Of a stretch of DNA of 20,109 nucleotides, positions 3,069-9,710 are shown in pieces. The first letter of the stretch is position 1, and each line of letters starts with the position of its first letter. Source of the DNA: a virus; the IMG/VR virus record IMGVR_UViG_3300050119_000046, positions 1-20,109 of that record; one strand, given 5' to 3'. A model generated the notes under the pieces. The model was given only the letters and a program-made list of their open reading frames with translations. It was not told the origin of the DNA and made no database searches. Both the position numbers and the translations under genes were made by a program.

Positions 3069-3220
3069 AAGACCCCGACAGCTTCCATCGTGCCCACATT
3101 CGCAATAAGAGGAACAATGGAGACGATGACTCAAACGTGAAAACGAGTTGCGGAGATTGTCATAGAAAGTTCCACAACTACGGCCCCTCCGGGAAAAAAC
3201 CTTGCCCTCCCAAGAGGTGA
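2927..3220 (+). CDS. HNH endonuclease, 97 aa
   Basis: The HNH signature is complete: CxxC at Cys34/Cys37 (CQDC), the AHIRNKRNNG stretch with His57, Asn70 in the NVKTSC segment, then CGDCHRKFH with Cys75, Cys78, His79 and His83. A basic N-terminal tail (residues 1-25) precedes the domain, as is usual in stand-alone phage HNH proteins. These enzymes cut DNA using one metal ion. In phages they act in homing, in packaging beside the terminase, or in recombination. It is far from the terminase here, so homing or a DNA-metabolism role is more likely. The ATG at 2927 is preceded by AAGG at an acceptable distance. It overlaps the upstream frame by 142 nt. Confidence 0.85.
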   Translation: MVKSSRTKQRPGRLSPAEVREQQWRIFQRDKGICQDCQREVRFGAPIEDPDSFHRAHIRNKRNNGDDDSNVKTSCGDCHRKFHNYGPSGKKPCPPKR

Positions 3221-3495: not shown

Positions 3496-3760
3496 CAAGC
3501 GAGAAGCGAAGCGGGCTACAGAGCTTCACTACACGCAAGAGATGGGGATAATCTCTGATCTTCAAGAACAGGTGAAATTCGAGATCATCCCCAAGTGTGG
3601 ACCCAACCGCGCGGCACATTACATCCTCGATTTCCAGTACATCGATTGCACTACTGGGTTGACTCACCACGAAGACTCTAAGGGCTACAAGACCCCAGAA
3701 TATATTTTGAAAAAGAAGTTGATGCTGGTGGTTCACGGCATCCTAATCGAAGAGGTATAA
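3452..3760 (+). CDS. DUF1064-family putative nuclease / resolvase-like protein, 102 aa
   Basis: The start is the ATG at 3452 (PHKYHAVKT...), which has GGAAGG upstream; an in-frame GTG at 3443 is less likely. The sequence follows the DUF1064 family closely: KYHAVKT at the N-terminus, DSKREAKRATEL, GIISDLQEQVKFEI, YILDFQYID with Asp60, and HEDSKGYKTPEY with Glu74/Asp75 and Lys77. The Asp...(E/D)-x-K arrangement is a PD-(D/E)XK-type active site. Members are phage proteins suspected of cutting branched DNA during recombination or replication; this is family-level knowledge, not shown here. It fits the surrounding replication/nuclease cluster. Confidence 0.82.
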   Translation: MPHKYHAVKTRGYDSKREAKRATELHYTQEMGIISDLQEQVKFEIIPKCGPNRAAHYILDFQYIDCTTGLTHHEDSKGYKTPEYILKKKLMLVVHGILIEEV

Positions 3761-3947: not shown

Positions 3948-4433
3948 ATGAGTAGCCGAAGGGAAGACCGAGAGCTAAGAGAGATCATTGACTTGGACCG
4001 CAAGATTTTAGAGCGGCTCCCCAACCCCCACCGCATCACACCTACAGGAATCATATTCAAAGAGGTCACAATGAATCCAACACAGGCAGGACAGGTCCAA
4101 GTTTTCACCGGCACGCTGCAACCGGCAGCCATCGGTACTACCCCGGCAGCAGCTTATCCGGCAGGCGTAACCTTCACCGCAACCGCGAATGACGACGCGC
4201 TCAATTCTGGGGCAATCGTAGTTGATCCGACCGGCACAATCGTAACGGTAACCTACCCTGATGGATGGGTGGAGAACGCTGCGCTTCCGCTGGCGATCAC
4301 GTATGAGTCGAGCCCGTTCACTCCGTTCCCGTCGACGAGCCCAAGCCAAGTTTCAGCGGTCATCACGCCGAGTGCTCCTCCGCAGGCCGCCGTGCCGACG
4401 CCGACGAGCATCTCGTTTGTGCAGACTCAATGA
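3948..4433 (+). CDS. Hypothetical protein with Ig-like (Big-type) beta domain, 161 aa
   Basis: The start at 3948 has GGGAG five bases upstream. The first 41 residues are charged and helical (RREDRELREIIDLDRKILERL). They are followed by an internal ATG at 4071 that has its own AGAGGT site, so a shorter product of about 120 aa starting MNPTQAG is possible. From there the sequence is a beta-sandwich-like domain: QVQVFTGTL, GVTFTATANDDA, VDPTGTIVTVTYPDGW and LPLAITYE, resembling bacterial Ig-like domains on phage virion or surface proteins. The C-terminus is Pro/Ser/Thr-rich. It is the last gene before the terminator. The role is unknown; the dual-start possibility is inference from the two binding sites. 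Confidence 0.7.
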   Translation: MSSRREDRELREIIDLDRKILERLPNPHRITPTGIIFKEVTMNPTQAGQVQVFTGTLQPAAIGTTPAAAYPAGVTFTATANDDALNSGAIVVDPTGTIVTVTYPDGWVENAALPLAITYESSPFTPFPSTSPSQVSAVITPSAPPQAAVPTPTSISFVQTQ

Positions 4434-4467
4434 ATCAAATAAAAGTCCCCGAAGGCAAGTAAAAAGA

Positions 4468-4507
4468 AAAGCCCCCATGTAGCTCATCACGAGCCATCGG
4501 GGGCTTT
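4468..4507. terminator. Bidirectional rho-independent terminator between convergent operons
   Basis: Arms AAAGCCCCC (4468-4476) and GGGGGCTTT (4499-4507) pair perfectly, with an inner GCTC/GAGC hairpin. On the minus strand the stem is followed by TTTTCTTTTT, an excellent U-tract, so it best terminates the leftward operon. On the plus strand the tail (TTTGAATTTC) is weaker but may end the rightward 2-4433 transcript. Confidence 0.88.
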
Positions 4508-4521
4508 GAATTTCAGTACGC

Positions 4522-4750
4522 GTGGAGGGGAGGCCCCGTGTTGCTCCTCCACCTCTATCCACAGCGTTCCCGGTGGTCAACGTGGACTTTCCGGGTTCTT
4601 TCCAACGGTTCCTCGTTGGGCGAACTTTGCGCGGTCGTTTCGTAGACCGCGACTCCGAGTTACCAGCTCGGACGATTCCAGGGGGAGGAAAACCATGAAA
4701 ACGACCCCTGGGAATGCGTTCAAAGTCTGCCCCGAGGAATAGCCTCGGGG
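4522..4750. ncRNA. Candidate structured RNA: seven consecutive hairpins in a non-coding gap
   Basis: Perfect or near-perfect stems occur one after another: 4522-4528/4546-4552, 4569-4573/4591-4595, 4602-4607/4614-4619, 4630-4636/4645-4651 (7 bp), 4654-4659/4667-4672, 4678-4684/4705-4711 (7 bp) and CCCCGAGG/CCTCGGGG flanking AATAG near 4730-4750. ACTTTG (4624-4629) can pair with CAAAGT (4721-4726), enclosing three of the stems as a multibranch junction. The region (4508-4761) has no convincing gene in a genome that otherwise overlaps its genes. Extra G-U pairs that extend the stems exist only on the plus strand, weakly favouring that strand. On the minus strand it would be the 3' part of the operon transcript just before the terminator. 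It does not match tRNA, tmRNA or another class I recognise. Confidence 0.45.
4695..4742 (+). CDS. Possible 15-codon mini-ORF inside the structured region
   Basis: A strong GGGGGAGG site (4680-4687) stands 7 nt before an ATG that opens a 15-codon frame ending in TAG at 4740-4742. The binding site is partly inside the 4678-4711 stem, with the ATG in its loop, and the stop lies in the loop of the following hairpin. This could be a leader peptide or a chance frame. I see no promoter for it on the plus strand. Confidence 0.2.
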   Translation: MKTTPGNAFKVCPEE

Positions 4751-4761
4751 ACTTGGACCAA

Positions 4762-5583
4762 CTAGCTGTTCATCTGGCTGCTACCGCCAAGATACACCTC
4801 CTTGAATCTGGTCTTGCTGAGCGCCACACCGTTAACGGTAAATTCTCCGATGCCTGCGGGGAGGTCGATGGTTTTGTTGTGGACGACAATCGCTCCCGCG
4901 TCAACGTATGGCTTGGAGAGTGGACCTCCCTTACTCGCGTCTTCGGTCAGGGCGTCGATAAACTCGATCAGCTCCGGCGTCGGTTCGAGACCCAGTTTGC
5001 GGACGGCTTCTTTCTTTCCGGCGTCCTGGTTGGTTTCCTTACGCTCCGCTTGGATCTCCTCGACGCGCTTGTCGAGCGCCGCCTGGTACTCGGGGTTGTC
5101 GAGCAGGTACACCGCGAGACGTTTCCCTCGAATGATCCCTTCGTCCACGGTAAGTCCGAGGCTCTTGGTCACGGTCTCCAGCTCGTCGTCGTCCCCCTCT
5201 ATTGCGACAGCGGCCATCAAGGCGTCGTGCTCTAAGTTTGGGATGAAGACCTTCTGAGTTGCCTCCGGGCCTTTCACGTGACCGACGAGCCGCGCGTACT
5301 CGCAATAATCGCACTTGCAGCCGGGAGTTATATCGCCCTCCTTGATAGCGATACCCTTCTCGGTCGCTATCTCAGACACGCGTGCGTTGAACTTCACGCG
5401 ATATACATCATTAGCGATAAGGTAGGGAAGCAGGGTGGCAGCCAGTCCTAAAACAGCCGGTTCGGAGAGCTTGTGCTCCACGCAGTAGTCGTCGAATGAC
5501 TTGCCGTCGTCTTCCTCCTCCACTAGGACATAGAGTTGCGCGTCGGTTTCAAGATCCCGACTGTCTACGATATTTTCATGCAT
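4762..5583 (-). CDS. Acidic hypothetical protein, 273 aa
   Basis: Last gene of the leftward operon. The N-terminus is strongly acidic (VLVEEEDDGKSFDDY). A middle segment has a Cys cluster CKCDYC (about residues 88-93) that may bind metal. Residues 155-200 are helical and charged (ALDKRVEEIQAERKE), and the C-terminal part ends in a small beta-rich region with IDLPAGIGEFTVNGV. There is no signal peptide or membrane helix. I do not recognise the family. The start ATG at 5583 follows a purine-rich leader AGAAAAGAGAAAAAC, which is shared with the 6296 gene and sits right after a long hairpin. Its stop is followed by the structured region and terminator. Confidence 0.78.
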   Translation of the reverse strand: MHENIVDSRDLETDAQLYVLVEEEDDGKSFDDYCVEHKLSEPAVLGLAATLLPYLIANDVYRVKFNARVSEIATEKGIAIKEGDITPGCKCDYCEYARLVGHVKGPEATQKVFIPNLEHDALMAAVAIEGDDDELETVTKSLGLTVDEGIIRGKRLAVYLLDNPEYQAALDKRVEEIQAERKETNQDAGKKEAVRKLGLEPTPELIEFIDALTEDASKGGPLSKPYVDAGAIVVHNKTIDLPAGIGEFTVNGVALSKTRFKEVYLGGSSQMNS

Positions 5584-5587
5584 GTGT

Positions 5588-5604
5588 TTTTCTCTTTTCT
5601 GAAG
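5588..5604 (-). repeat. 17-nt repeated leader, copy 1
   Basis: In mRNA sense this reads CTTCAGAAAAGAGAAAA, directly before the start at 5583. The identical 17 bases occur at 6301-6317 before the 6296 start. It probably contains the ribosome-binding purine tract. Confidence 0.8.
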
Positions 5605-5609
5605 GCCAG

Positions 5610-5647
5610 TTACCTTCCCTATGCCCCGGAGGGCATAAGGCTGGTAA
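5610..5647 (-). promoter_or_regulatory. Imperfect long hairpin upstream of the 5583 gene
   Basis: CCCTATGCCC (5617-5626) pairs with GGGCATAAGG (5631-5640, one G-U on the RNA strand) around a 4-nt loop. After a 2x2 mismatch, TTACC (5610-5614) pairs with GGTAA (5643-5647). It starts 1 nt after the TAA of the preceding gene and ends just before the purine leader. No U-tract follows, so it is not a terminator. An RNase III-type processing site or 5' stabiliser is plausible. Confidence 0.6.
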
Positions 5648-5648
5648 G

Positions 5649-5831
5649 TTACCGGGTGACTTTTTCGCGCTTCTCGGCAGCTTCGAGATACTCGCGAACG
5701 TTGGCGACGCGCTTAGACGCCTTAGCACGCTCATCTGGGTCAGTGGTCGCGTTCAATGTCGCCACTTCCCGCTCAAGTTGGCGTTTGTACTCGCGTGCGG
5801 TGTAATGGTGCGGTTGGTTGTTTGCGTTCAT
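5649..5831 (-). CDS. Small charged helical protein, 60 aa
   Basis: A short protein made almost entirely of charged helix (YTAREYKRQLEREVATLNAT, then ERAKASKRVANVREYLEAAEKREK), probably a coiled coil or helical hairpin. The start ATG at 5831 lies 3 nt beyond the stop of the upstream gene, whose last codons supply the AAGGCAGGTAG binding region, so it is co-translated. No enzyme or DNA-binding motif is visible. Function unknown. Confidence 0.7.
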   Translation of the reverse strand: MNANNQPHHYTAREYKRQLEREVATLNATTDPDERAKASKRVANVREYLEAAEKREKVTR

Positions 5832-5834
5832 GAT

Positions 5835-6077
5835 CTACCTGCCTTTCACTTTCTTGGCTATGGCGCGTTCCTTGCGGAGCGCGTCGGCTTCTTGTTTGGC
5901 CGCGAGAGAGTACATCGCGTCGTAGGTTAGGGTGAAGCTCTTTCGCGTGCCCTTCAATCTTAGAGTAGCGAAGGAGTTGTGGGCTTCGACTATGATAGGC
6001 CGGAGCCTGCCCTTCTCACGAATTGCCGAACCCGTTTCAAAGATCGTACGCGTCCGGCGCTCACTCAGTCTCGTCAT
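5835..6077 (-). CDS. Hypothetical phage protein, 80 aa
   Basis: Basic protein with a beta-rich centre (RPIIVEAHNSFATLRLKGTR, SFTLTYDAMYSLAA) and a charged C-terminal helix (EADALRKERAIAKKVKGR). Small proteins of this general layout (I-V-E-A-H ... L-R-L-K-G-T-R ... T-Y ... helix) occur in phage early operons without known function. The ATG overlaps, as ATGA, the stop of an alternative frame of the upstream gene (see 6074-6184), an arrangement typical of translational coupling. Nucleic-acid binding is possible from the charge; I cannot say more. Confidence 0.72.
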   Translation of the reverse strand: MTRLSERRTRTIFETGSAIREKGRLRPIIVEAHNSFATLRLKGTRKSFTLTYDAMYSLAAKQEADALRKERAIAKKVKGR

Positions 6078-6184
6078 CGGGACGCCTCATGCGCCGCAGC
6101 AAATGCGTGGAATAGTTCCTTGATTGGGACTTCGTACGTGGCGTTTCCAACCTCGACAAACCACTTCCCAGTTATATCCGCACT
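6074..6184 (-). other. Likely true 3' part of the 6296 gene in the +1 frame
   Basis: In the frame shifted by one base, 36 codons from 6184 to a TGA at 6076-6074 encode a well-behaved sequence (KWFVEVGNATYEVPIKELFH, then an alanine-rich helix). Its stop overlaps the next ATG as ATGA. It has no start codon of its own after the TAG at 6187-6185. This suggests it belongs to the upstream gene and is now separated by a one-base frameshift. Confidence 0.5.
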
Positions 6185-6296
6185 CTACAAGGCCCCGAAG
6201 CTCTTCATACTCGAACCTTTTCTTATTAGCTGGTGAGACTTTGCATTGGGACCCATCTACCGCATAGATGTTGGCGTATTGCACCTTCTTGGCCAT
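6087..6296 (-). CDS. Hypothetical protein, 69 aa, probably frameshifted near its C-terminus
   Basis: The start is the ATG at 6296 (MAKKVQYANIYAVDG), not the upstream in-frame ATG at 6383, because the purine leader shared with the 5583 gene stands directly before it and the upstream part lies in a long hairpin. Residues 1-38 resemble the front half of DUF3846-like phage proteins (Y-x-x-D-G..., V-S-P-A-N-K-K-R-F-E-Y-E-E-L-R-x-L-V). The last ~28 residues of the annotated frame are Arg/Cys-rich and unlike a folded domain, while the +1 frame gives a plausible continuation that ends in an ATGA overlap with the next gene. A mutation, a programmed frameshift or a sequencing error could explain this. 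Confidence 0.6.
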   Translation of the reverse strand: MAKKVQYANIYAVDGSQCKVSPANKKRFEYEELRGLVECGYNWEVVCRGWKRHVRSPNQGTIPRICCGA

Positions 6297-6300
6297 CTTG

Positions 6301-6317
6301 TTTTCTCTTTTCTGAAG
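6301..6317 (-). repeat. 17-nt repeated leader, copy 2
   Basis: Identical to 5588-5604 and in the same position relative to a start codon (ATG at 6296) and an upstream long hairpin (6321-6401). Confidence 0.8.
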
Positions 6318-6320
6318 CCT

Positions 6321-6401
6321 GGTAAGCTCCGCGATGCAATGAGAGTAGGCTCGTGGGAGACCCAATCCTGCACTTTGTCTCATTGCATCGCGCAGCTTAC
6401 C
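6321..6401 (-). promoter_or_regulatory. 24-bp inverted repeat (long hairpin) upstream of the 6296 gene
   Basis: Arms 6321-6344 and 6378-6401 are complementary over 24 positions with a single G-G mismatch on the RNA strand and a 33-nt loop that has its own GGG/CCC mini-stem. It ends a few bases before the repeated purine leader and start codon. No U-tract follows. Such a perfect duplex would be an excellent RNase III substrate; alternatively the arms are a DNA-level inverted repeat. Confidence 0.75.
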
Positions 6402-6527
6402 CCGCTGCGCTGGATGGTTTTAGCCATCCGTTTTCATAGCCACCTCCAAGTGGGACTTGCTAGGTTCCTGTTGCAGTGTTCAGCGTAAATGAGCACTCTT
6501 GTAAGATGCTTGTCTTACAGAAAGGAT
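6402..6527 (-). other. Non-coding stretch with small hairpins, perhaps a decayed gene
   Basis: Between the stop at 6528 and the 24-bp hairpin there is no convincing gene. On the RNA strand it holds TGTAAGA/TCTTACA (around 6500-6519), CAAG/CTTG around TCCCA, and GGATGG/CCATCC (6411-6428). A strong GGAGGTGGCT precedes an ATG near 6440 that opens only a 5-codon frame, which may be the remnant of a lost gene or a leader peptide. Confidence 0.4.
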
Positions 6528-6950
6528 TCAGGCGTCCAGTTTATCAACTTTGACGATGGCACTGGCAGGGATTGATCCTGGATGCCAATAGGCTTCCATA
6601 GAGGCCGCGTCCTCATCGACGTGCAGCGTTGAGAAGTCGTCGATCTGTATTTCAAGCAGGATTGGCTTAGCGTTGCCTAAAGGTGCGGGAGCATCCTCGG
6701 ACCTATAAAACCCTTGATAGAGCGGGAAGTTCACCTTCTGTCCGGGGAGTGCATTCAGATAGCTCGCGCGAAGAATTGCGAATGCTTCAGCCGTCTCGCG
6801 CGAGGTGCTTAGATACACTCCGGGATGGGTGGGTGGGACTCGATCTCCGTAAGATGTTTCAACCTGAAAGATGCGTGTCTTGGACGGCTTGAGCCCATTC
6901 TTTTGGATGGACGGTAAATAGGTGCTGGCGGTGCCGTGGTATAGCAGCAT
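6528..6950 (-). CDS. ADP-ribosyltransferase / RNA 2'-phosphotransferase-like protein, 140 aa
   Basis: The start is the ATG at 6950 (MLLYHGTAS), which has GAGG six bases upstream; the longer frame to 7070 would run through the hammerhead ribozyme and is rejected. The sequence has the layout of small ART-fold proteins: LLYHGT near the N-terminus (the H-x-T of the NAD-binding site), ILSIQKNG-type helix (SIQKNGLKPSK), HPGVYLSTSRETAEAFA, and a C-terminal PILLEIQIDD...YWHPGSIPASAIVKV. Phage proteins of this type are often annotated as KptA/Tpt1-like or PARP-like, and could modify RNA or host proteins with NAD. A catalytic Glu is not certain. The gene lies behind a ribozyme and a 6-bp hairpin (6966-6983). 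Confidence 0.68.
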   Translation of the reverse strand: MLLYHGTASTYLPSIQKNGLKPSKTRIFQVETSYGDRVPPTHPGVYLSTSRETAEAFAILRASYLNALPGQKVNFPLYQGFYRSEDAPAPLGNAKPILLEIQIDDFSTLHVDEDAASMEAYWHPGSIPASAIVKVDKLDA

Positions 6951-6965
6951 GTTTCCTCGTTTTCT

Positions 6966-6983
6966 CGACGCTGGTAGGCGTCG
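6966..6983 (-). promoter_or_regulatory. RBS-proximal hairpin of the 6950 gene
   Basis: CGACGC (6966-6971) and GCGTCG (6978-6983) pair around a 6-nt loop; the AGAAAACGAGGAAAC ribosome-binding segment follows at once. It lies between hammerhead ribozyme 1 and the start codon. Confidence 0.6.
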
Positions 6984-7001
6984 TTCAGATGTCCATTCCT
7001 T

Positions 7002-7053
7002 GGACTCATCAGCACGCGCATTACGCGTGGAGCGGGCGGACCCGCTTTCGTCC
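7002..7053 (-). ncRNA. Type II hammerhead ribozyme 1 (52 nt)
   Basis: Reading the minus strand from 7053: stem II 5' strand GGAC (7053-7050); core GAAA (7049-7046); stem III GCGGG/CCCGC (7045-7041, 7036-7032) with a 4-nt loop; U (7031) pairing with the last core A; C17 (7030), the expected cleavage position; stem I CACGCG/CGCGTG (7029-7024, 7018-7013) with a 5-nt loop; core CTGATGA (7012-7006); stem II 3' strand GTCC (7005-7002). Every conserved hammerhead nucleotide is present, including the G-C pair next to the core. Stem II is the open stem, which defines type II. It starts on the base after the TAA of the upstream gene. Cleavage would leave a downstream RNA whose 5' end is immediately the stem I hairpin. 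Confidence 0.94.
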
Positions 7054-7269
7054 TTATTCGTCGCAGTCAAGAGTGAAGCTATTAGCTTTTTGATCGTAGT
7101 AGGCTTGCACGTTGCACGGGGGTGGGGCGATGCTTATTAGGGCGCGTGCTGGCGGTTGGAGAACTTCTACCGCCCAATTAGCTCCAATACATGTAGTTCC
7201 GATGTACAGTCCAGCAACTACAGCGATGAGGAAGAATTTCTCGGAGTGATTCTTGAGGTAGGTTTTCAT
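7054..7269 (-). CDS. Small membrane-anchored protein, 71 aa
   Basis: A positively charged start (MKTYLKNHSEK) is followed by a hydrophobic helix at about residues 12-31 (FFLIAVVAGLYIGTTCIGA), then a Pro-rich, Cys-containing tail (PPPCNVQAYYDQKANSFTLDCDE) that would face outward. This is a signal-anchor layout. The start at 7269 has AAAGGAAAACC before it, 16 nt after the previous stop. Its N-terminus resembles that of the 38-aa protein at 9028-9144, so the two may be related. Its TAA stop is directly followed by hammerhead ribozyme 1. Function unknown. Confidence 0.72.
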   Translation of the reverse strand: MKTYLKNHSEKFFLIAVVAGLYIGTTCIGANWAVEVLQPPARALISIAPPPCNVQAYYDQKANSFTLDCDE

Positions 7270-7285
7270 GGTTTTCCTTTCGGGG

Positions 7286-7597
7286 TTAGTCGTTCAGTGA
7301 ATTGGAGTAATCGATCTCTATCACATCTCCGCGAAGTGGAAGGACGCAATGATCGACTGCAAACGGGTTTATAGGCCGGTCTGTACTAGGGATGGCATAG
7401 GCGATGCGTCTACCGTCGTGCGATTCGCAGAATTCGACATGGTTGTCGTCTAATGCGCCTATCAAACGGGTGATGGAATCCCGTCCTAATTGCGCCCGAG
7501 GCTCGCTACGCGCGATTCCCGGTCTACAGGTGAAGTAATCGGGCGTATTAACCTCTTCGACTTCACCTGAAGCCTTGTAGAGCGTTGCTAGTGGCAT
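7286..7597 (-). CDS. Hypothetical protein, possibly DUF3846-like, 103 aa
   Basis: Starts one base after the stop of the upstream gene, with GAGAAAGGCGG as the likely ribosome-binding region, so it is co-translated. The layout is a beta strand with A-T-L-Y-K-A-S-G-E-V-E-E-V, a helix containing SITRLIGA, a strand followed by DGRRIAYA, then RPINPFAV and RGDVIEIDY. That order (strand, helix, strand, DGR, P-x-N-x-x-A, GD-V-I) resembles DUF3846 phage proteins, whose role is unknown. The match is by pattern only and not strong. No metal site or membrane segment is visible. Confidence 0.7.
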   Translation of the reverse strand: MPLATLYKASGEVEEVNTPDYFTCRPGIARSEPRAQLGRDSITRLIGALDDNHVEFCESHDGRRIAYAIPSTDRPINPFAVDHCVLPLRGDVIEIDYSNSLND

Positions 7598-7598
7598 C

Positions 7599-7775
7599 TC
7601 AGGCCGCCTTTCTCGCCACTAACCCAGCTTCGATCAGTGAAGCGGCTGTGCGGCCATAGGAGCCTTGCAACTGCCATGCTAGGCCGCTGTTGACGAGTTC
7701 TTGGAAGAGTTCAATAGTTGCATCCTCGTCCAAGTCTCCCTGTTCATACGCGATGATTTTGTCTACTTGATCCAT
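7599..7775 (-). CDS. Conserved small phage protein (VDKIIAYEQG type), 58 aa
   Basis: The product begins MDQVDKIIAYEQGDLDED and continues with IELFQELVNSGLAWQLQGSY and GRTAASLIEAGLV. This is a small helical protein of a type very widespread in tailed phages (I believe Pfam has it as a DUF around DUF7417; the number should be checked). Its function is unknown. The start at 7775 follows a GAGAGGATAAAAATC site and lies 25 nt behind hammerhead ribozyme 2, so its mRNA would start with the ribozyme's stem I hairpin. The downstream gene begins one base after its stop. Confidence 0.85.
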   Translation of the reverse strand: MDQVDKIIAYEQGDLDEDATIELFQELVNSGLAWQLQGSYGRTAASLIEAGLVARKAA

Positions 7776-7800
7776 GATTTTTATCCTCTCTTCAGACGTT

Positions 7801-7852
7801 GGTCTCGTCAGTGTGAGCTTTACCCACAGAGCCCATTGAAGGGCTTTCGACC
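7801..7852 (-). ncRNA. Type II hammerhead ribozyme 2 (52 nt)
   Basis: Minus strand from 7852: stem II GGTC (7852-7849); core GAAA (7848-7845); stem III GCCC/GGGC (7844-7841, 7834-7831) with a 6-nt loop; U (7830); C17 (7829), the expected cleavage site; stem I TGTGGG/CTCACA (7828-7823, 7817-7812, one G-U) with a 5-nt loop; core CTGACGA (7811-7805), matching CUGANGA; stem II GACC (7804-7801). All core positions agree. The stems differ in sequence from ribozyme 1 while the core is kept, which is covariation. It has the same 52-nt length and also starts directly after a TAA stop, in the context AATAAGG-N-C-GAAA-GC shared with ribozyme 1. Confidence 0.94.
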
Positions 7853-8080
7853 TTATTTGACAATCTCTTCGAGCGATTCCGAGACTTCTGCAACCGCCTC
7901 AGTTTGTTCGCCTGATGCGAGTATCACGCGGGAGAGAATACCGCCCGCCGCAAGCTCCGTGCCTAGATGCGACAGATAGAGCTTGAAAAGGTATTCGCAA
8001 CCTTGGATTGCTGCAATCGCCGCAATGATGATGAGCGAGTGAAGGATGATAGAGCGGGTGCGCTTGCTAATTCTGTGCAT
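7853..8080 (-). CDS. Small membrane or lipoprotein-like protein, 75 aa
   Basis: I chose the ATG at 8080 (MHRISKRTRS) because GGGGGAGAT precedes it; the longer frame to 8140 lies inside the upstream gene. A basic N-terminus is followed by a hydrophobic segment at about residues 11-26 (IILHSLIIIAAIAAI) and then QGC. This resembles a signal peptide with a lipobox, but Gln at -2 is unusual. The rest is an amphipathic, mildly acidic region (TEAVAEVSESLEEIVK). It overlaps the upstream gene by 14 nt. Its TAA stop is followed at once by hammerhead ribozyme 2. Function unknown. Confidence 0.68.
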   Translation of the reverse strand: MHRISKRTRSIILHSLIIIAAIAAIQGCEYLFKLYLSHLGTELAAGGILSRVILASGEQTEAVAEVSESLEEIVK

Positions 8081-8255
8081 ATCTCCCCCAGTCGTCGTTA
8101 TCGCCAGTGAAGCGAATGGGGGAACCATGCGTCTCTGCATCGTTGATTGCGACTTCTAATTCACCACGATCAACGTTCAGTAGTACGGCTATGGTCGGGA
8201 CGTTTATTCCAGCGGCGTAGAGATTGATTGCGTTTTGCCTTGTATCGTGGTCCAT
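8067..8255 (-). CDS. Small helix-turn-helix-like protein, 62 aa
   Basis: The start is the ATG at 8255 (MDHDTRQNAINL) with CGGAG before it; the 8282 start would lie in the hairpin. Residues 5-35 follow a homeodomain/transposase-type HTH pattern: RQNAINLYAAGINVPTIAVL then LNVDRGELEVAIND, with the turn at AGINV. The remaining 25 residues are polar. It could be a small transcription regulator of the phage or the host, but with only one short motif this is a moderate inference. It overlaps the following gene by 14 nt and is preceded by the 8274-8316 hairpin element. Confidence 0.68.
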   Translation of the reverse strand: MDHDTRQNAINLYAAGINVPTIAVLLNVDRGELEVAINDAETHGSPIRFTGDNDDWGRYAQN

Positions 8256-8273
8256 GGTTTTTCTCCGATGGTT

Positions 8274-8316
8274 GGTTACCATCTCTAAGCTCTAATAGAG
8301 CTTAGGGCCGGTTACC
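8274..8316 (-). promoter_or_regulatory. Intergenic hairpin element, copy A
   Basis: Upper stem CTAAGCTC/GAGCTTAG (8285-8292, 8298-8305) sits above an internal loop (GCC/AGA in RNA sense) and a lower stem formed by the two GGTTACC segments (8274-8280, 8310-8316) with one A-A mismatch. It begins at the stop codon of the upstream gene and ends just before the CGGAG ribosome-binding site of the 8255 gene. Same plan as 8517-8562 and 8980-9021. Confidence 0.72.
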
Positions 8317-8495
8317 TAGCTCTCTAATTCAGAGCCATCATTGAAGCTGGTATAAACGGGTGCTTGTCCATTCGAAAACTGCCTTGCGGTAACGATGTAT
8401 TCGTCAACTTCTTGCAGTGATTCGTAGACGTAATGGTCAGTTCCAAGCGCTTCCGTGCGACGTTGCGCCTCTTTGGTTGCGAATTCGAGTGTCAT
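8316..8495 (-). CDS. Hypothetical protein, 59 aa
   Basis: The start is the ATG at 8495 (MTLEFATKEAQRRTEALG), with TGAGGA at the right distance upstream; the frame to 8525 enters the hairpin. A first helix (ATKEAQRRTEAL) is followed by strand-like segments HYVYESL, DEYIVTARQF and APVYTSF, so a small alpha/beta fold is likely. Short phage proteins of the form 'F-A-T-K-E-A ... helix ... three strands' are common and uncharacterised. Its TAG overlaps the next hairpin element by one base. Function unknown. Confidence 0.7.
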   Translation of the reverse strand: MTLEFATKEAQRRTEALGTDHYVYESLQEVDEYIVTARQFSNGQAPVYTSFNDGSELES

Positions 8496-8516
8496 TTGTT
8501 TATCCTCATGATGGAT

Positions 8517-8562
8517 GGTATCCACCTCTAAGCATCGTATGAGGATGCTTAGGGTTGGTTAC
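8517..8562 (-). promoter_or_regulatory. Intergenic hairpin element, copy B
   Basis: Upper stem CTAAGCATC/GATGCTTAG (8528-8536, 8544-8552) with a 7-nt loop, a small internal loop, and a lower stem between GGTATCC (8517-8523) and GGTTAC (8557-8562) that keeps an A-A mismatch on the RNA strand. A second small hairpin GTCCA/TGGAC (8565-8578) sits between it and the upstream stop. It lies directly before the binding site of the 8495 gene. Confidence 0.72.
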
Positions 8563-8577
8563 TTGTCCAGTGGTGGA

Positions 8578-8961
8578 CTACTTAGAATAGTCGGAGTAGA
8601 CCCGGGACGGATGGATGCCGATTAGCCTCAAAATACCTTCATTTTCATCGCCATTCTCACTCTCGACTGATACGGGAGTGCTGGTAGAACGCGTGTAGTA
8701 GACGGGTTTGGGTGTCACTAGGAATGATGTCGCCTGAATCTCTTGCACTAGGACTGCCTCTTGCTTATTCGCCGTCCGAATCCGTTCGGTGCATTCCGCT
8801 TGAAAGCGGGTCACACCGTCTAGTTCGATAATCAGTGATTTCTCTCGCACGCCTTTCCATGATCCTTCGCAGGGAATGAGCGTGTATGCGTCTATGGAAG
8901 CGCTTGCGAGTGCTGCATGGATATTCTCGCGATTGATATCTTCAGTAAGTATGCGAATCAT
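8578..8961 (-). CDS. Hypothetical protein with CutA/PII-like pattern, 127 aa
   Basis: The start at 8961 has a strong GGAGGAAACACA before it. Residues 1-75 show an alternation like small ferredoxin-like folds: MIRILTEDINRENIHAALA, DAYTLIPCEGSWKGVREKSL, IIELDG, a helix FQAECTERIRTAN, then KQEAVLVQEI. The G-x-W-x-G-x-x-E-x-S-L and N-x-Q-E-A-V-L-V motifs recur in uncharacterised phage proteins that I associate with a CutA/PII-like shape. The C-terminal 50 residues are polar and probably flexible. Binding of a ligand or a partner is possible, but no catalytic site is visible. Confidence 0.75.
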   Translation of the reverse strand: MIRILTEDINRENIHAALASASIDAYTLIPCEGSWKGVREKSLIIELDGVTRFQAECTERIRTANKQEAVLVQEIQATSFLVTPKPVYYTRSTSTPVSVESENGDENEGILRLIGIHPSRVYSDYSK

Positions 8962-8979
8962 TGTGTTTCCTCCGATGCC

Positions 8980-9021
8980 GGTAGCATCTCTTAGTCCACG
9001 AATGGACTAAGGGTTGATACC
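8980..9021 (-). promoter_or_regulatory. Intergenic hairpin element, copy C (UUCG loop)
   Basis: Upper stem CTTAGTCCA/TGGACTAAG (8990-8998, 9003-9011) closed by a UUCG tetraloop in RNA sense, an internal loop, and a lower stem between GGTAGCA (8980-8986) and TGATACC (9015-9021) with one mismatch. Compared with copies A and B the CTAAG/CTTAG base of the upper stem is inverted to CTTAG/CTAAG, a compensating change. It ends just before the GGAGG site of the 8961 gene. Confidence 0.75.
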
Positions 9022-9027
9022 ATTCCG

Positions 9028-9144
9028 TTAGCGAACGATGAATGGATGAGCTGCGAGTCCGGCCACAATCGCGCAAACGATAAAGCCAAGGATGATGGCG
9101 ATTGCAACGATGAGCTCTTGACGGTCTTTGATGAAGTTCTTCAT
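9028..9144 (-). CDS. Single-helix membrane peptide, 38 aa
   Basis: First gene of the leftward operon. The ATG at 9144 is preceded by AGAGGAGAACAAACC. The product has a charged N-terminus (MKNFIKDRQE) and one long hydrophobic helix (LIVAIAIILGFIVCAIVAGL), then a short tail. The longer frame to 9237 would cover the promoter and is rejected. The N-terminus is similar to that of the 71-aa protein at 7054-7269. Proteins of this size in phage early operons sometimes inhibit host functions or act in lysis control; neither is shown. Confidence 0.7.
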   Translation of the reverse strand: MKNFIKDRQELIVAIAIILGFIVCAIVAGLAAHPFIVR

Positions 9145-9159
9145 GGTTTGTTCTCCTCT

Positions 9160-9175
9160 GTCGCTTGGCTGCGAC
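9160..9175 (-). promoter_or_regulatory. 5'-terminal hairpin of the leftward operon transcript
   Basis: GTCGC (9160-9164) and GCGAC (9171-9175) pair around a 6-nt loop. With the promoter at 9182-9210 the expected start of transcription is about 9174-9176, so the RNA would begin on the first base of this hairpin. The AGAGGAG ribosome-binding site follows directly. Confidence 0.55.
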
Positions 9176-9181
9176 TCCCAA

Positions 9182-9210
9182 ACAATAAATGCATCTGTAA
9201 GACAAGTCAA
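9182..9210 (-). promoter_or_regulatory. sigma70-type promoter of the leftward operon
   Basis: On the minus strand TTGACT (9210-9205) and TATTGT (9187-9182) are separated by exactly 17 bp and stand in an AT-rich divergent region. They match 5 of 6 and 4 of 6 consensus bases. It points to the first gene (ATG 9144) and is the only good promoter seen for the 4762-9144 operon. Confidence 0.72.
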
Positions 9211-9236
9211 GAAAATAATACATTCCATATTTATCA

Positions 9237-9710
9237 ATGAGATACTTTAGATATCCACAGGATGAGAATGGAATTGTGTGGATATATTACAATGGAGTAA
9301 TGGCAAACAAAGAGAGTGTTAGGCGAGCGCAACGCAAGATGCGCTCGAATTGGGCTATTGCTGGTTTATGTCACAGTTGCGGTAAGTGTCCACCACTGGA
9401 CAAACGGACACTATGCGGGGATTGTCTCTTGAATCGTCGCCGTAACGTGCAATTGAGGCGTAGAGGTGTGAAGGTTCTCGACCTATTCGAGCGGGTAGAG
9501 CTTTCATGCGACATATGTGGGAAGTCTCTTGAGCGTAAGGATGCAAGACTCGACCACGATCGCGGTACCGGCATTGTGCGGGGATGGCTCTGCAATGCGT
9601 GCAACGTAGGCTTAGGGCTCTTTGGGGACGATATTGATATGCTGGTAGAGGCGGCTAGGTATCTGCGCAAGCATGGCAAGCGTAAGGCGATTCCATCTGA
9701 TATTCTTTGA
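9237..9710 (+). CDS. Recombination endonuclease VII-like protein, 157 aa
   Basis: The C-terminal half is a clear endonuclease VII domain: CDICG (Cys91, Cys94), LDHDRGTGIVRGWLCNAC with Asp106, His107, Asp108 and Cys119/Cys122, then NVGLGLFGDDIDMLVEAARY. A second CxxC...CxxC site precedes it (CHSC and CGDC). In T4, endonuclease VII resolves branched DNA before packaging; relatives in other phages often lie close to the terminase genes, as here. The start is uncertain: the ATG at 9237 has no Shine-Dalgarno, while the ATG at 9300 (MANKESVRRA) has GGAG very close by. The shorter form would be 136 aa and still contains both zinc sites. Confidence 0.85.
   Translation: MRYFRYPQDENGIVWIYYNGVMANKESVRRAQRKMRSNWAIAGLCHSCGKCPPLDKRTLCGDCLLNRRRNVQLRRRGVKVLDLFERVELSCDICGKSLERKDARLDHDRGTGIVRGWLCNACNVGLGLFGDDIDMLVEAARYLRKHGKRKAIPSDIL

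Follow-up and report, generated by a model that had tools for sequence, protein, structure and literature searches.

How might a phage draw separate messages from one long transcript? The question is raised by a block of small genes on the minus strand of IMG/VR virus record IMGVR_UViG_3300050119_000046, of which positions 1 to 20,109 were analysed (20,109 nt, hereafter the window). Between 9210 and 4460, the minus strand has the layout of a single operon. An initial annotation, made from the letters alone, had counted about 14 genes here, and the open reading frame (ORF) listing gave 13 (A to M, 9144 to 4762; Table 1). It had also described two ribozymes and a series of hairpins at the gene junctions and had proposed that the transcript processes itself. 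We found that 5 of the 12 junctions are overlapping or short (at most 16 nt), 2 contain the ribozymes, which we call HHR1 and HHR2, and 5 contain hairpins.

HHR1 and HHR2 are, as first described, both 52 nt long, and the first base of each directly follows a TAA stop codon. Both fold as GGNC-GAAA-stem III-UC/stem I-CUGANGA-GNCC (the slash marks the predicted cut) and carry the hammerhead core: CUGANGA, GAAA and UH before the cut. In both, as in the aligned copies described below, stems I and III are closed by loops and stem II is open, which is the type II topology. A covariance model trained on 73 copies, HHR1 and HHR2 among them, scored HHR1 at 62.4 bits and HHR2 at 69.1 bits; because the next-best match in the window reached only 9.6 bits, the window has exactly two hammerheads. 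The descriptor used to collect copies found no match in 1.2 Mb of shuffled window sequence or in 3.3 Mb of shuffled viral loci. The Rfam family Hammerhead_II (RF02276) scored HHR2 at 20.3 bits, below its gathering threshold of 37, and gave no match to HHR1. As judged from the sequence, the two ribozymes are a real feature of this operon, far beyond chance.

The pair is conserved in two related contigs. L004, whose portal protein is 76% identical to that of the window phage, keeps genes E, G, I and M and has HHR1 and HHR2 at the corresponding junctions. HHR1 has hardly changed there, despite a gene inserted before it and a different gene after it. In HHR2, the sequences of stems I and III are both new, with compensating changes in each, and C17 has become A. 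L006, from another metagenome, also has both ribozymes, the second of them truncated where the contig ends. A search for further relatives with proteins E, G, I and M found only L004 and L006.

We then asked how widely this form of hammerhead occurs. The core pattern GGNCGAAA-N33-CTGANGAGNCC matched at least 120 stretches in IMG/VR, and among the matches listed 117 of 120 viral stretches contained a hammerhead with full stems, compared with 3 of 119 matches in prokaryote genomes; the compact form is therefore strongly virus-associated. Stem I was 17 nt long in 167 of the 177 unique copies among the matches listed, comprising 6 bp and a U-N-A-N-G loop in which U was present in all 167 copies, A in 140 and G in 148; the base after stem II was A in 122 of the 167. 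The pattern fixes the total length, yet copies of other lengths in the same loci still have the 17-nt stem I. A pseudoknot of at least 4 bp between loop I and the tail after stem II could be drawn in 19 of 165 compact copies against 13.8 expected, so that none was detected for the set as a whole. We refer to copies with the 17-nt stem I, the UNANG loop and no detected pseudoknot as the compact subclass. They share topology, core and cleavage position with RF02276, and differ in the fixed 6-bp stem I with its U-N-A-N-G loop, in the lack of a detected pseudoknot, and in falling below the Rfam threshold or being missed by it: at threshold, Rfam reported 1 of 58 descriptor matches in 12 viral loci.

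In the alignment of the 73 copies, 99.7% of cells were paired, and the covariation score was 0.80 compared with 0.15 after shuffling. Changes on both sides were seen in 14 of 16 pairs, with compensation in all three stems, and GAAA, U16.1 and CUGA.GA were invariant. These copies had been picked by a descriptor that requires the stems, yet just 3 of 120 pattern matches failed it. Among 105 loci, all collected with the type II pattern, a search for type I and type III hammerheads elsewhere yielded one candidate, a type III on the minus strand of L139 near the start of the array, beside nine type II matches. Compact copies were absent from HMO-2011, CRP-207, Ligma, PhatBacter and PaP3 (PaP3 by descriptor only).

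The placement of these ribozymes is strict. Of the 177 unique copies, 88.7% begin between -6 and +10 nt from the upstream stop codon, compared with 12.3% of random positions, with offset peaks at -1, 0 and 2. Stop codon usage depends on the offset: of the 48 copies at -1, 46 have TAG, whose G is shared with the ribozyme, and of the 28 copies at 0, 25 have TAA. The next start codon led by a Shine-Dalgarno (SD) sequence follows a median of 22 nt downstream, and in 35 of 36 loci with several copies all lie on one strand. Comparison of junctions among related genomes, a check that the initial annotation had suggested, revealed a type II hammerhead at nearly every open junction of some viral loci. 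In loci with at least two copies, a ribozyme occupied 90 of 109 open junctions (at least 40 nt in metagenomic loci) between the first and last ribozyme; eight junctions in a row have one in L139, as do all seven in L183. By eye, variant or broken copies can be made out at several of the junctions not counted as occupied, and the covariance model adds further copies, for example L066 10892-10943 and L068 8896-8947. The flanking genes that were scanned are mostly of unknown function; those that could be named encode ATPases, an HNH endonuclease, ParB, an integrase, a RusA-like resolvase and a sigma factor.

A match to stem III led to the cultured Streptomyces phage Marav, whose early region contains 13 Rfam Hammerhead_II matches on a single strand, 11 of them at or above threshold. 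In the early regions of four further phages, matches numbered 9 in R4, 10 in phiELB20, 9 in Diane and 14 in Jevington (one below threshold); the R4 region lies at about 41776-49461 of NC_019414. With annotated genes a hammerhead lies at 45 of the 54 open junctions of these five phages, a count that omits three tiny R4 ORFs overlapping ribozymes. The copies mostly score above the RF02276 threshold and mostly end 10-20 nt upstream of the next start codon. They are pseudoknotted: in Marav and Diane, 19 of 22 can form at least 4 bp between loop I and the tail, against 9.3 expected. Two subtypes thus occupy the same positions, which suggests that position and function have been selected rather than inherited with one element. 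We found no report of hammerheads in Streptomyces phages in the open-access literature. The three R4 (L331) genes left out of the count, gp60.1, gp67.1 and gp75.1, overlap hammerheads at 1277-1341, 3645-3709 and 6597-6661 and are probably spurious; the annotated start of the R4 OCR gene lies upstream of another hammerhead (5248-5313).

Taken together, these data make it likely that the hammerheads cut polycistronic mRNA between genes, and that the hairpins that type II ribozymes leave at both ends insulate the resulting segments and probably stabilise them. Fold, covariation, placement and conservation are established at the level of sequence; from them we infer cleavage in infected cells, the chemistry of the ends, stability and insulation. 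In the proposed scheme, one promoter would give a polycistronic RNA, and the stop-codon-fused compact hammerheads at two junctions would cleave it in cis, presumably during transcription. The upstream product would end stop-GGNCGAAA-stem III-UC>p, with a 2',3'-cyclic phosphate just past the stop codon, and the downstream product would begin HO-stem I, with a 5'-OH a few dozen nucleotides ahead of the SD. Because both arms at the cut of a type II hammerhead are closed hairpins, stem III would end the upstream mRNA and stem I would begin the downstream one; because the two products are joined by no more than the 4 bp of stem II, they should separate easily. Each segment would thereby acquire hairpin-capped ends, a minimal 3' tail and a standard leader ahead of its SD. 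The predicted segments, A-E (approximately 1.35 kb), F-H (0.8 kb) and I-M with a structured 3' tail (approximately 2.6 kb), would be insulated, probably longer-lived, and would decay and be translated independently. The earlier self-processing scheme thus finds support for the predicted ribozyme cuts, which would divide A-E, F-H and I-M, and finds none for the plain hairpins as processing sites. Its proposal that each processed RNA starts with a hairpin closely followed by an SD is likewise predicted at every new 5' end, with the difference that only the segment downstream of HHR2 has a spacer hairpin ahead of its SD; downstream of HHR1, stem I is the sole clear predicted 5' hairpin.

Several observations weigh against this interpretation. 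Only 2 of the 7 open junctions of the window operon have a ribozyme, and in single-copy loci just 51 of 270 other open junctions do, so that dense punctuation is not universal. The metagenomic junction counts also depend on a homemade same-strand ORF chainer. Finally, the 3' strand of stem II can refold with downstream sequence at HHR2 in both the window and L004, and we considered whether such refolding makes cleavage irreversible; it is not general (4 cases seen, 7.1 expected), and the idea was rejected.

Overlap with the stop codon could instead point to a translation-linked switch, in which a terminating ribosome covers the 5' strand and the GAAA core, and blocks folding, so that cutting occurs only if translation of the upstream gene is poor. 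The 5' ends of most compact copies, -2 to +3 nt from the stop and often sharing one base with it, fit such a switch, but plain compactness accounts for the overlap too, and many Streptomyces phage copies start 10-20 nt or more past the stop, so strict overlap is not needed. We consider the switch unlikely. We think it quite unlikely that cleavage is incidental and that the hammerheads persist as selfish or mobile RNA elements, or as recombination joints retained for the exchange of small phage genes. The near-identity of HHR1 in L004 between different direct neighbours would suit this explanation, as would the several degenerate copies and the preponderance of neighbours of unknown function; the strong compensatory evolution, the strict strand and stop-codon register and the presence of two subtypes in the same positions all suggest, by contrast, that a folded, active form has been selected.

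Cleavage between genes could instead serve mainly to remove RNA, since cuts within operons can destabilise one product: segments with a 5'-OH would be sent to decay, giving a timed lowering of downstream gene expression. This general precedent is countered by the SD that each downstream gene retains right after the ribozyme, and by RiboJ, a synthetic hammerhead and hairpin insulator that increases rather than decreases expression in Escherichia coli, with transcript approximately 2-fold and protein 2-10-fold higher (PMC6206723); we regard removal as improbable. Circular mRNAs, formed if an RtcB-type ligase joined cistrons freed between two hammerheads (5'-OH and 2',3'-cyclic phosphate), would fit the end chemistry and the many single cistrons that have a ribozyme at either end in densely occupied loci, L139 and L183 for example, yet we hold them to be very improbable, as no ligase gene was noticed in the window, where no systematic search was made, and Perreault et al. 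looked for products that were circular or spliced without finding any (PMC3088659).

Table 1. Features of the minus-strand operon in the window.
Feature	Position	Strand	Remarks
HHR1, compact type II hammerhead, E/F junction	7801..7852	-	predicted cut 7829/7828
HHR2, compact type II hammerhead, H/I junction	7002..7053	-	predicted cut 7030/7029
Spacer hairpin CGACGC..GCGTCG, between HHR2 and gene I SD	approx. 6964..6983	-	CGACGttaccaGCGTCG in L004
A/B hairpin element, GGTATCAACCC TTAGTCC..GGACTAA GAGATGCTACC, SD GGAGG	8962..9027	-	z -2.7
B/C hairpin, second copy of CCCTAAG..CTTAGAG element	8496..8577	-	z -4.5
C/D hairpin, third element copy	8256..8315	-	z -4.5
I/J long hairpin	6317..6406	-	z -5.0 over whole 231-nt gap; conserved in L004
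L/M hairpin CCTTATGCCC-tccg-GGGCATAGGG, 10-bp stem	5584..5648	-	z -3.3
13 small genes A-M	4762..9144	-	ORF listing
Promoter TTGACT-17-TATTGT, sigma-70-like	9182..9210	-	consensus match
Operon 5' leader, hairpin GTCGC-agccaa-GCGAC ahead of SD GGAG	9145..9186	-	fold z -2.4
Predicted intrinsic terminator at operon end	4460..4501 (bounds approximate)	-	stem 4493-4474 + T tract

The other open junctions of the operon do hold hairpins, as the initial annotation stated, and all five fold more strongly than their shuffles (Table 1); among 43 control junctions, 14% lay below a z of -2 and 7% below -3. By predicted fold, these plain hairpins are real and non-random. The A/B, B/C and C/D hairpins represent three copies of a single element, GGTAaCC..CCCTAAG-hairpin-CTTAGAGaTGGtAaCC, and differ in their stems; the A/B copy is conserved in L004 and L006, its stem being kept and its loop changed in L004. 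Outside this phage, the CCCTAAG-type leader hairpin turned up solely in the one close lineage represented by L004 and L006, and by the covariance model none of the plain hairpins is a hammerhead, findings that lend no support to their proposed role as processing sites. We also asked whether the CCCTAAG hairpin occurs widely or conceals a ribozyme and rejected both ideas, as 16 pattern matches elsewhere were dissimilar and without the stem of the element. Read from the sequence, the loop ATCCTCAT of the B/C hairpin in the gene C leader is complementary to its own SD region ATGAGGAT; as the two can pair, not every hairpin need be protective. In L004, genes B and C appear to have been lost at about 5077-5040 on the minus strand, through fusion of the start of B (ATGATTCGC) with the D leader (AACCAACCATCGG).

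The I/J hairpin, in the gene J leader, conserves an inner motif, GAGAC.AAAG.GCAG.AT.GGG..CCC.CGAGCC.TACTCTC, with an L004 counterpart at about 3095-3150 on the minus strand. It had no credible Rfam match, one collection scan for it returned two stretches, and it is long enough to be a candidate for RNase III. More generally, the plain hairpins may be RNase sites, stabilisers or translational operators.

A single promoter had been proposed for the operon. The consensus match is present, and L004 has a similar TTGACTTGTCTTACAG stretch, but our promoter scan found a second promoter-like site among the two on the minus strand within 4400-9400, at 6019-5992 (GTGAGA-16-TATCAT), and gave no excess of sites over shuffles; the site at 9210-9182 is thus a consensus match only. 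The terminator scan of the minus strand placed no terminator-like site at any operon junction; gene E contains two weak ones, and another lies at the operon end. Exactly two copies of the sequence TTGTCTTACAG are present, one at the promoter (9195-9205, minus strand) and the other, inverted, at the I/J junction (6510-6520, plus strand); the sequence lies at the promoter and the I/J junction in L004 likewise, and is a possible operator. On the 3' side of gene M, the block CATTCCCA.GGGTCGTTTTCATGGTTTTCCTCCCC.TGGAATCGTCC (4640-4761, minus strand), part of the structured tail preceding the terminator, is conserved in L004 near 2100-2250 on the minus strand, and on the strand opposite it a tiny ORF preceded by a strong SD could begin.

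Gene I (6528-6950, minus strand) lies immediately downstream of HHR2, and its ortholog in L004 also comes after a hammerhead. The N-terminus of its product, LYHGTASTYLPSIQKNGLKP, resembles chains of RNA 2'-phosphotransferase (KptA/Tpt1) with an E value of 0.011; a structure prediction was of no use (predicted local distance difference test score of 31). Were this likeness true, an RNA-end-modifying enzyme would adjoin a ribozyme, which would be notable.

The early mRNA of phage T7 is polycistronic and is cut between genes by RNase III at structured sites, whereas the two cuts predicted here would be made by the RNA itself. A closer parallel lies in prophages, in which hammerheads, type II included, are clustered around single genes or gene blocks. 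Perreault et al. showed in 2011 that such hammerheads cleave themselves both in vitro and in E. coli, and proposed that they split long phage transcripts into gene-length mRNAs (PMC3088659). Transcript splitting by clustered phage hammerheads is therefore known, as a proposal. Several ribozymes between genes on one strand, as this idea would have it, are seen here as well; in contrast to those clusters, ours come from a metagenome phage contig, are fused to stop codons, occupy most open junctions in other loci, are mostly compact and without the loop I pseudoknot, and are accompanied by structured non-ribozyme leaders at the other open junctions of the window operon. In RiboJ, a hammerhead is followed by a hairpin and then the ribosome-binding site, the arrangement seen after HHR2 in the window and L004; unlike that engineered part in the 5' leader of a gene, these are natural, predicted type II motifs between operon genes. 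The apparent novelty lies in how densely the ribozymes occur, in their fusion to stop codons, in the compact subclass and in the named cultured phages.

A 2017 review described the role of prokaryotic hammerheads as an open question and noted their persistent link to phages (PMC6155905). The cultivable phage R4 of Streptomyces coelicolor carries the pseudoknotted form, which makes this role directly testable. More tentatively, and with more doubt than confidence, we suggest that early mRNA maturation in a large class of phages no longer depends on host RNases, stop-fused compact type II hammerheads yielding insulated, hairpin-capped and mostly single-gene mRNAs as a natural RiboJ, with the type II topology selected because it caps both ends. 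If cleavage does occur, phages build insulated gene cassettes with self-cutting RNA, a practice that would be relevant to how operons evolve, to the mosaicism of phages and to ribozyme parts in synthetic biology.

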